From Streptococcaceae bacterium ESL0729 (GTDB lineage Bacteria > Bacillota > Bacilli > Lactobacillales > Streptococcaceae): a stretch of DNA of 64,000 nt. A program made the position numbers and the translations under genes. The stretch is from contig CP113924.1 of NCBI GenBank assembly GCA_029391995.1, positions 899,001-963,000 of the forward strand. Reading direction: 5' to 3'. Positions 37,748 through 41,966 of the stretch are shown here, piece by piece. The notes below the pieces were generated by a model. That model did no database searches and was not told the origin of the DNA. It was given only the letters and a program-made list of their open reading frames with translations. Every line of letters starts with the position of its first letter. The stretch's first letter is position 1.

Positions 37748-39607
<1,860 letters not shown>

Positions 39608-39661: not shown

Positions 39662-40189
39662 TTACTGAGCTACTACAACCATGCTTGGTCTTAAAACTCG
39701 GTCATGAAGTTTGTAACCCTTTTGGAAGACTTGCACAATTGTATCAGCCGGATGTTCATCATCTGCTGGAACAGTCTGGACTGCCATATGGAAGTTAGGA
39801 TCAAAAGCTCCTTCAGTTGAAATTTCTTCAACTCCCTCTTCTTTTAGGGCATTTGATAGGCTCTCTTGAACCATCTCAATTCCTTTTTTAACTGACTCAT
39901 CCATTCCTTCGACAAGGAGAGCACGCTCTAAGTTATCAAGACTTGGGATAATTTTTTTAGCCAAATCCTGTGAACGATACTTTTGGATACTTTGGCGTTC
40001 TTCAACTCCGCGACGCTGAATGTTTTGCATTTCAGCTGCCGTACGAAGGTACTTATCTTCAAGCTCATCAGCCTTCTTCTGAAGAAGTTCAAGCTCACTT
40101 AACTCTTCGACAAGCTCCTTGGCTTCTTCAACCAAATTTTCTTCAACTTCTTCTGCTCGTTCTTCTTTTTTTAAATCTTCCTTAGACAC
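39662..40189 (-). CDS. grpE: Nucleotide exchange factor GrpE
   Basis: 175 residues. An acidic, unstructured N-terminus ([20 protein letters not shown]) leads into a long coiled coil. The C-terminal beta domain carries NPNFHMAVQ-type motif ([16 protein letters not shown]) and the family end [11 protein letters not shown]. It releases ADP from DnaK. It follows hrcA by 22 bases. Confidence 0.95.
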
Positions 40190-40211: not shown

Positions 40212-41249
40212 CTACTTTTGGACCTCGTAGTGATTACCATCTAGGTACCTATAGTAGTCAGCCAGCTTCATTGATAGAATTTTTGCTATCAAATCAACGA
40301 GACCAACCACCCGGTCATAATCTATATCAATCGGTGCTATAACAAGGGCCGTACCAATCCCCCGATAGGGGATAATAAACCTCTGAGCTATGAGGGTCAA
40401 ATCCTTAAAAAGATCATCCTCCCCTAGCTTAATGGTTCGTGCATTATTAGCATCAACCATCCCCCTAAGATTTTGAGCCAACTCATCTCGGTCACTCAAT
40501 AAGCGGTACAAGTAATCATTATGCTGGGCATAGTCAAGCAACCTGTATTCATCAACCATCTGAATATCTTCCTCGTACAAGACTGAAAAAATATAATCAA
40601 AAAGTTCAGATACATCAATTGTTACTTGAAAGAACTTAGCCAGAATCTGAGGAATCTCAGTCCTTAAAGCATAGTGGATATCAAGAACCCTCTTACCGAC
40701 CAGCCTAGACTTAACAAGAGCCGAAATTTTCTCAACATCATCAACTGCCATACTACTTGGTAGGATAAACTGATTGGTCTTAACACTTCCGGTACTTAAG
40801 GTCATAACAGCAAGGGCTGAATGACTGTCAAGAATTACAATATCAAAATTTGTTAGCCTCTGCTCAAGCGGCGGAATACCCAAGACAAAACTTGTGAGCC
40901 CCGTCCTACTTGCAAGTAAGCCAGCTGCTGTTTCAAAAATATCATTCAACCTATAAAAATCATGGTCAAACGAGTTCATAATCTCAAAGATTGCATCCCG
41001 GTCCAACTGACTGGGCTGTAAAAAGTTATCGACAAAGTACTTGTAGCCATCGATTGATGGTACCCGACCACTAGAAAGATGCTCCTTCTTTAAAAAACCA
41101 GCATCCTCAAGCACCTTCATATCATTTCTGATGGTGGCACTTGATGCCTTGATTGAATCCATTAAAACTTTGGAACCAACAGGTATGTGAGTTGATCCGT
41201 ACCTAATTACAATCAGGCTCAAAATATCTTCTTGTCTTTTTGTTAACAT
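40212..41249 (-). CDS. hrcA: Heat-inducible transcription repressor HrcA
   Basis: About 345 residues from the ATG at 41249. A GTG two codons upstream at 41255 is also possible and lies 5 bases from AGGAGG, whereas the ATG is 11 bases away; family proteins begin M-x-T-x-R-Q, which fits the ATG. An N-terminal winged helix (RQEDILSLIVIRYG, SSATIRNDMKVLEDAGFL) binds CIRCE. The remainder is the GAF-like and dimerisation part (PYRGIGTALVIAPIDIDYDR near the end). It represses its own operon. A CIRCE covers its ribosome site and the start codon. Confidence 0.95.
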   Translation of the reverse strand: MLTKRQEDILSLIVIRYGSTHIPVGSKVLMDSIKASSATIRNDMKVLEDAGFLKKEHLSSGRVPSIDGYKYFVDNFLQPSQLDRDAIFEIMNSFDHDFYRLNDIFETAAGLLASRTGLTSFVLGIPPLEQRLTNFDIVILDSHSALAVMTLSTGSVKTNQFILPSSMAVDDVEKISALVKSRLVGKRVLDIHYALRTEIPQILAKFFQVTIDVSELFDYIFSVLYEEDIQMVDEYRLLDYAQHNDYLYRLLSDRDELAQNLRGMVDANNARTIKLGEDDLFKDLTLIAQRFIIPYRGIGTALVIAPIDIDYDRVVGLVDLIAKILSMKLADYYRYLDGNHYEVQK

Positions 41250-41275
41250 TAGCACTCACACCTCCTGACTGCTAA
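41249..41275. promoter_or_regulatory. CIRCE operator covering the hrcA ribosome site and start
   Basis: TTAGCACTC, a 9-base spacer and GACTGCTAA match the CIRCE consensus TTAGCACTC-N9-GAGTGCTAA with one mismatch. The spacer contains the AGGAGG ribosome site (41261-41266), and the left arm reaches the A of the hrcA ATG. Confidence 0.92.
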
Positions 41276-41285
41276 CTATATGTAC

Positions 41286-41314
41286 ATGATACACCCTATT
41301 TTATATAAAGTCAA
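41286..41314 (-). promoter_or_regulatory. hrcA operon promoter
   Basis: TTGACT (41309-41314), 17-base spacer and TATCAT (41286-41291) on the minus strand, immediately upstream of the CIRCE. Confidence 0.8.
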
Positions 41315-41325
41315 GAAAAAAGCAT

Positions 41326-41359
41326 AAAAATTAGCACTTGATTTATTCAAGTGCTAATT
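41326..41359 (-). terminator. Terminator of the glucosaminidase gene that has CIRCE sequence
   Basis: AATTAGCACTTG and CAAGTGCTAATT form a 12-bp stem with a 7-base loop and a TTTTT tail in the minus direction. Counted as 9-base arms with a 9-base spacer, it is a CIRCE with one symmetrical change (final C/G to T/A). It lies 17 bases upstream of the hrcA -35. Confidence 0.85.
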
Positions 41360-41366
41360 AAAGAAA

Positions 41367-41966
41367 TTAATTGTCATATTGATATAATTTATACTGCTCG
41401 ATTAACTCAATTAACTTACTGGCATAGGTAGGATCAGTTGCATAGCCTGCATCTTGAATGGCCTGGGCCGCTTCCTTGTAGTCACCTGCGGCAACAACAG
41501 CTGCATACTTGCTCTTGTCCCAATCAACTCCCTCACGCATAAGCCTTGCATGGGCTATGATTGAATCCCTCCAAGAGTCATACCAGGCAAAATCACCAGT
41601 AGCTGTAATCCACTCTCCGTCCAGGTATTCCTTGGTTTCAAGTTTAATATGTTTCCCGCTACTATCTGCCTTTACGCCAAATAAGTTTTTATACTTGCTG
41701 GCAAGTTCACTCTGGCCAAAGTTTGATTCAAGACTTGCCTGAGCTATGATTAAAGAAGCTCTTATTCCGTAGGCTTCTTGAACCTCCTCAGCAGCAGGAG
41801 CTATCTCTTTGATAAACTCCTTACGATCAATTTTTACTATCGTTTCCTCAAGCTTACTTGAACTTTGGTCGGTATGCTCCAGGGAAAAGTTACCAATAAA
41901 GAGAGTTACCAAAAGCTCAATTAAGATAAAAAAGATAAAAAATGGTAGCTTTAACTTTCGTCTCAC
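41367..41966 (-). CDS. N-acetylglucosaminidase-type peptidoglycan hydrolase (GH73)
   Basis: 199 residues. An N-terminal hydrophobic segment (about 7-26) acts as signal or anchor. A glucosaminidase domain follows (about 50-199): AYGIRASLIIAQASLESNFG with the probable catalytic Glu, YKNLFGVKAD, and SWRDSIIAHARLM. There are no cell-wall-binding repeats, so it is a short, probably membrane-held enzyme that trims glycan strands at division. It follows the phosphatase gene by 40 bases and probably shares its transcript. Confidence 0.87.
   Translation of the reverse strand: MRRKLKLPFFIFFILIELLVTLFIGNFSLEHTDQSSSKLEETIVKIDRKEFIKEIAPAAEEVQEAYGIRASLIIAQASLESNFGQSELASKYKNLFGVKADSSGKHIKLETKEYLDGEWITATGDFAWYDSWRDSIIAHARLMREGVDWDKSKYAAVVAAGDYKEAAQAIQDAGYATDPTYASKLIELIEQYKLYQYDN

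Follow-up and report, generated by a model that had tools for sequence, protein, structure and literature searches.

CIRCE, a bacterial operator that has been studied extensively, is generally shown as a single copy close to the start of the message. In the window, by which we mean the whole 64-kb stretch of DNA analysed here, two CIRCE-like palindromes precede the hrcA-grpE-dnaK operon, and the one farther from hrcA lies upstream of the −35 hexamer, within a hairpin followed by a run of T. Why would a chaperone operon keep two copies of its operator, and why would one of them look like the end of the preceding gene? The features concerned are the following.

41367..41966, minus strand: glucosaminidase-domain gene, a probable peptidoglycan hydrolase and the upstream neighbour (Pfam Glucosaminidase, 2.7e-38)
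41329..41359, minus strand: terminator-type hairpin of 13 bp with a 5-nt loop, enclosing the distal CIRCE (folding and terminator scan)
41331..41357, minus strand: distal CIRCE, putative HrcA operator, TTAGCACTT-GAATAAATC-AAGTGCTAA with an N9 spacer (pattern match and family conservation)
41326..41330, minus strand: T-tail TTTTT abutting the distal CIRCE (sequence read; tail comparison across loci)
41309..41314, minus strand: −35 hexamer TTGACT of the hrcA operon (promoter scan)
41286..41291, minus strand: −10 hexamer TATCAT (promoter scan)
41249..41275, minus strand: proximal CIRCE, TTAGCAGTC-AGGAGGTGT-GAGTGCTAA with an N9 spacer, one mismatch
40212..41249, minus strand: hrcA, heat-shock repressor (Pfam HrcA, 3.4e-25), start ATG 41249
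39662..40189, minus strand: grpE (Pfam GrpE, 6e-48)
37748..39571, minus strand: dnaK (Pfam HSP70, 1.6e-249)

The minus-strand stretch spanning both CIRCEs and the promoter reads TAATTTCTTTAATTAGCACTTGAATAAATCAAGTGCTAATTTTTATGCTTTTTTCTTGACTT. A sigma-70-type promoter, TTGACT-17-TATCAT (41314-41286), lies between the two CIRCEs. The stop codon of the glucosaminidase gene is followed, in the same reading direction and as at an intrinsic terminator, by 9 nt and then the distal CIRCE, which itself stands 16 nt upstream of the −35 of hrcA-grpE-dnaK. It thus lies at the promoter of a class I heat-shock operon, but on the far side of the −35, unlike the usual CIRCE. A preliminary description of this locus had claimed a hairpin of CIRCE geometry after the glucosaminidase gene, a T tail on the minus strand and a position just upstream of the hrcA −35. 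All of these were borne out: the palindrome falls at 41331-41357 with a 9-nt spacer, TTTTT occupies 41326-41330, and TTGACT is 16 nt away. The canonical CIRCE that it had placed past the −10 is indeed present at 41249-41275, but with one mismatch (arm TTAGCAGTC) it is not fully canonical. Concerning hrcA itself, the start codon (ATG 41249) was picked through comparison with relatives, and the HrcA DNA-binding domain model scored 20.1 bits on the product, just under the 21-bit cut-off. The last base of the proximal CIRCE is the A of this ATG, and its spacer holds a ribosome-binding-like AGGAGG. The predicted 5′ leader of hrcA is nearly all operator, and the same was seen in all four genomes of the window's genus examined.

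CIRCE was searched as the inverted repeat TTAGCACTC-N9-GAGTGCTAA. With up to three mismatches allowed, the window contains only two matches (41331-41357 and 41249-41275); the mean over 100 shuffles was 0.02 matches, and two were never obtained. The whole genome (1.448 Mb), in which hrcA is present as expected where CIRCE operates, holds five CIRCE-like sites at up to three mismatches and four at up to two, and a reversed-pattern control across its 1.448 Mb gave no match. Beyond the pair in the window, the sites with up to two mismatches lie at groES and dnaJ. The fifth site, with three mismatches, is found at G000:C1:722120-722146 (TTAGCACTGGCATAAGCCGAGTGCTTT), G000 being the genome of the window. 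The distal CIRCE departs from the pattern at its two innermost arm positions, symmetrically, and these still pair. What had been described as one compensated change is thus symmetric and paired as claimed, but amounts to two mismatches to CIRCE. We did not use a compensatory change of this kind as stand-alone proof of an RNA structure, because a dimer operator favours symmetry too.

The hairpin was then examined as RNA. The arms that had been described are present, but the stem is longer than claimed, with 13 bp and a 5-nt loop; the predicted minus-strand hairpin is a stable stem-loop (−16.1 kcal/mol, z −5.1 or −6.8 depending on the length folded), and only 4 of its 13 pairs are G-C. It is still predicted to fold at 50 °C (−11.6 kcal/mol). 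Downstream of the distal CIRCE, TTTTT and then ATGCTTTTTT form a 3′ T-run that was reported by the terminator scan. Two of the T pair within the 13-bp stem as well, which leaves a modest tail (T5, ATGC, T6). Terminator-like sites show no excess between 37000 and 46000 (9, against a shuffle mean of 8.2), and among these nine the distal hairpin has the longest stem, the runners-up having 7 pairs. Rfam returned nothing at gathering scores over 30000-55000.

Relatives were located through HrcA. The window's family (f1) includes Lactococcus and Streptococcus, and prevalence in it was taken from 125 of 127 genomes selected by HrcA alone (G017 and G444 were left out, owing to contig ends), counting loci with two CIRCEs, each with up to three mismatches, within 500 nt of hrcA. 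Both elements, whose conservation the preliminary description had proposed to check, precede hrcA in 121 of the 125 genomes; the remaining four have the proximal copy only. Among the 121 loci, the arms are perfect in 113 distal and 17 proximal copies. A T-tail, defined as at least five T among the next six nucleotides, follows 112 of the distal CIRCEs and none of the proximal ones, leaving nine distal copies without.

On a broader scale, the dual-CIRCE pattern was found, within the order, in 201 of 395 genomes and 35 of 81 genera, with no match for the reversed control. A set of 80 named loci comprised 24 with two CIRCEs, 53 with one and three with none; Bacillus-type loci mostly carry the proximal CIRCE only, as does the Streptococcus sciuri locus (L045). 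Tailed CIRCEs occurred in 16 of 250 genomes of a class sample, all of them among the 22 that belong to the window's order; the other 228 had none. For comparisons between loci, 249 of 250 were oriented (L110 was left out) and six duplicates dropped, giving 243 loci: 188 with two CIRCEs, 52 with one and three with none. As L195-L249 among the 188 had been found via the CIRCE pattern, prevalence is taken only from the 125 HrcA-selected loci; a few of the 188 pairs are doubtful (eight have a spacing of 44-51). Distal arms are perfect in 163 of these 188 loci.

In this larger set, 135 of 188 distal CIRCEs are followed by a T-tail, as against 0 of 188 proximal ones; 53 distal copies lack it. Start-proximal groES CIRCEs, of which 24 were located among 30 loci, never carry one (0/24). 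Strong A-runs before the distal CIRCE were counted in 34 of the 188 loci, compared with T-runs after it in 135, and a bidirectional terminator is therefore not general. Among unique sequences, 42 of 83 tailed distal CIRCEs lengthen the stem by two or more pairs into the spacer, as do 12 of 51 untailed distal ones; the comparison sets gave 24 of 153 for proximal sequences and 12 of 52 for groES or single-CIRCE hrcA sequences. This excess is largely that of Streptococcus (g4), with 56 of 67 tailed loci; in genus g8 the figure is 1 of 17. Pairing at the first two positions was slightly above the prediction from column composition (0.86 against 0.76, and 0.55 against 0.48). The preliminary description had named as its refuting case relatives that keep the hairpin and lose CIRCE. 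The reverse was found: most untailed relatives keep CIRCE, with perfect distal arms in 34 of the 53, indicating that the sequence is retained where no terminator is made.

Both states occur within the window's own genus. In the genome of the window and in G002, the distal CIRCE is tailed, has the arms TTAGCACTT/AAGTGCTAA with the innermost pair intact, and adjoins the stop codon. In G001 and G003, the same gene is followed by a separate hairpin and T-run (−14.3 and −11.8 kcal/mol), and the distal CIRCE, 118 and 109 nt beyond that hairpin, has the arms TTAGCACTC/AAGTGCTAA with an unpaired C.A and is without a sense-strand T-tail. The right arm AAGTGCTAA is common to all four genomes. The simplest inference is that a change in the left arm restored pairing where the element must terminate, an order of events suggested by these four sequences.

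We scanned 300 nt upstream for separate terminators at cut-offs of −5, −7, −9 and −11 kcal/mol, adopting −9 kcal/mol or better as the definition. At −9 kcal/mol, separate terminators are present upstream of 26 of 135 tailed and 31 of 53 untailed loci (Fisher p 3.8e-7). Stratified by genus, the odds ratio at −9 is 0.22 (p 0.022), and p is 0.26, 0.097 and 0.027 at −5, −7 and −11; within-genus permutation gave 0.13, 0.044, 0.016 and 0.019 at −5, −7, −9 and −11. With the loci collapsed to genus-states, the −9 cut-off gives p 0.0098. Within genera, the trade-off is thus seen mainly for strong separate terminators and is weak at laxer cut-offs. The upstream stop codon is also nearer in tailed loci, with a median of 24 nt against 65 nt among the 125 tailed and 45 untailed loci passing a filter, kinship being ignored in this comparison and upstream genes being called by a simple ORF rule that is wrong in some cases (for example a 62-aa ORF in L007).

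The position of the distal CIRCE relative to the promoter proved nearly fixed. Promoters were called with at least 9 of 12 matches between the CIRCEs, and one was found in 180 of the 188 loci. Of these 180, 163 have 16-19 nt between distal CIRCE and −35, nine have 4-7 nt and eight have 27-28 nt; no other value was seen. As genera share ancestry, the 180 promoters represent far fewer independent cases, and Rayleigh p-values were set aside for this reason. The minority gaps are about one helical turn shorter or longer. A gap of 17 nt is found both with a tail (97 loci) and without (38). The tail abuts CIRCE in 8 of 8 loci with a gap of 27-28 nt and in 7 of 9 with a gap of 4-7 nt; both loci with a 5-nt gap lack a tail. 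Genus g8 is informative here: the two CIRCEs are 77-80 bp apart, compared with 82-85 bp in most other genera, while the −35 is still 16-18 nt from the distal copy. This suggests that the distal CIRCE is placed with regard to RNA polymerase no less than to the second CIRCE. The same genus, in which the proximal CIRCE moves and the distal gap is constant, weakens the idea that looping between the two copies accounts for the spacing.

Tailed CIRCEs are not confined to hrcA. A search of 36 genomes gave 27 of them: 15 at hrcA, seven at dnaJ, three at hsp20, one at groES and one at hrcA but facing away from it (G003). Targets were assigned from coordinates and locus reading, with Pfam for three of the seven dnaJ, the three hsp20 and the groES proteins. 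The dnaJ and hsp20 loci that were read have an upstream CIRCE copy only within 250 nt, −35 positions being judged by eye. In the window's own genome, dnaJ has a single T-tailed CIRCE (G000:C1:1426252-1426283, minus strand; L003 / L322). An acyltransferase-like gene, so named by eye, has its stop 8 nt before this CIRCE, a −35-like sequence follows closely, and the arrangement is similar in the three other genomes of the genus. Older work reportedly noted an inverted repeat upstream of the promoter of L. lactis dnaJ. In three relatives (L313, L315 and L326), an HSP20 gene has a T-tailed CIRCE upstream. At groESL of genus g18 (family f9; L256-L262), 7 of 7 loci combine a tailed distal CIRCE with an untailed proximal one, separated by 85 bp in six and 75 bp in one.

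Taking these results together, we consider it likely that the distal element combines two roles, those of an upstream HrcA operator and of the intrinsic terminator of the preceding gene. Sequence comparison gives good support to a terminator doubling as an operator, the core of the dual-element reading in the preliminary description: the element is conserved, its T-tail is specific to one strand and one copy, tails and strong separate terminators tend to replace each other, and the distance to the −35 is nearly constant. The part of that reading that lost ground is looping as the reason for the spacing, given genus g8. Could the element be an operator and nothing else, the T-run being an A/T-rich, UP-like stretch that strengthens the promoter? 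AT-rich genomes often have A and T tracts upstream of a −35, a strong T-tail is missing from 53 of 188 distal CIRCEs that persist all the same, and the tail is absent at both promoters with the 5-nt gap. On the other hand, the tail abuts CIRCE in loci with the −35 at a distance of 4, 17 or 28 nt, T-runs on the sense side far outnumber A-runs on the opposite side (135 against 34 of 188), and a strong separate terminator is commoner where the tail is absent. The tail mostly tracks CIRCE and not the −35, which disfavours the T-run as a promoter element, and we regard this explanation as quite unlikely.

The converse, that the hairpin derives from a CIRCE copy and has lost HrcA binding, would agree with the two departures from consensus in the window's copy. 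However, 113 of 121 family loci and 34 of 53 untailed ones have perfect distal arms, a constraint far greater than a hairpin would impose. The distance to the −35 hardly varies, and the TTAGCACTT/AAGTGCTAA arm form is seen also as a proximal CIRCE, in L018. Moreover, dnaJ and hsp20 carry the upstream copy only in the loci read, and according to the available part of PMC3547956, L. lactis growing in milk co-expresses dnaJ with groES, hrcA and dnaK. Loss of HrcA binding is therefore highly improbable. A chance hairpin in AT-rich intergenic DNA would fit the finding that terminator-like sites in the region are no commoner than in shuffles, but with 0.02 CIRCE matches expected, a hairpin z of −5.1 to −6.8 and retention throughout the family, conservation refutes it and we give it practically no credence.

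How might an operator that is also a terminator work? As DNA, the palindrome would be occupied by HrcA some 65 bp before the predicted transcription start, on a constant face of the helix with respect to RNA polymerase at the −35. Jointly with the proximal CIRCE, which covers the start of the message, it would keep the chaperone operon silent at normal temperature. Repression from the distal site may proceed through polymerase contact, cooperation with the proximal site or looping. As RNA, the palindrome and T-tail would end the message of the preceding gene before the hrcA promoter, and we propose that the operon would consequently answer only to its own heat-shock promoter. Both HrcA binding and termination efficiency at the distal element are what we infer from the sequence comparisons. 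A broader proposal is a terminator-operator class in the Lactobacillales, at hrcA, dnaJ, hsp20 and groESL, in which HrcA acts as a roadblock that heat removes, giving temperature-dependent read-through into the chaperone operon; we think this unlikely.

The probable dual role of the distal element would offer a reason for keeping two CIRCEs. The better-conserved CIRCE is the copy upstream of the −35, and it is terminator-shaped in most sampled genomes of the Streptococcus/Lactococcus family, making it a candidate case of one palindrome selected both as DNA and as RNA. The finding is broader than the hrcA locus first described, and tailed CIRCEs recur at dnaJ, hsp20 and groESL. The dnaJ and hsp20 genes, having the upstream copy only in the loci read, would allow a direct test of HrcA repression from upstream of a promoter. 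Caution is also called for in annotation, as predicted terminators upstream of chaperone operons may be operators.

Paired CIRCEs at hrcA operons are already known in L. lactis and L. plantarum, and the terminator role is the apparently unreported part: no report of it was found in the literature searched, judged by title or the start of the abstract and with few subscription journals covered. CIRCE is not described as a terminator in the available portions of PMC1676014, PMC3842655, PMC3192767, PMC3547956, PMC6212727, PMC4245973, PMC4585701, PMC2662882 and PMC8069837. In the text available, PMC1676014 describes the dnaK promoter of L. lactis as overlapping with two CIRCEs and states that other lactic acid bacteria with available sequences have a single one, whereas two CIRCEs are the rule in the window's family. 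PMC3842655, in the part at hand, gives two CIRCEs at the Lactobacillus plantarum hrcA operon. Both systems have paired CIRCEs at the promoter as here, and a terminator role is absent from the accessible text of these two papers. At the single Lactiplantibacillus locus in our set (L051, L. mudanjiangensis), the distal copy has three mismatches and lacks a T-tail. For S. thermophilus, the available text of PMC3192767 reports a genome with 'only two CIRCE motifs', one per operon, whereas the Streptococcus genomes sampled here have two CIRCEs per hrcA promoter.

As for position, the consulted portion of PMC3547956 lists CIRCE motifs upstream of groES, dnaK, hrcA and dnaJ in L. lactis, and that of PMC6212727 places the pneumococcal groES CIRCE downstream of the start site. 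The Mycoplasma gallisepticum CIRCEs are described as upstream of chaperone gene promoters (PMC4245973), a location that by this description resembles that of the distal copy, and no terminator is linked to them in the part of that paper available. With classical CIRCE, the distal element shares the sequence, the spacing, the target operon and the presence of hrcA in the genome; the usual site is at or after the transcription start, whereas the distal copy is T-tailed and upstream of the −35. With intrinsic (Rho-independent) terminators it shares a stem-loop and T-run just past a stop codon, but its stem sequence is near-constant across species, which fits an operator.
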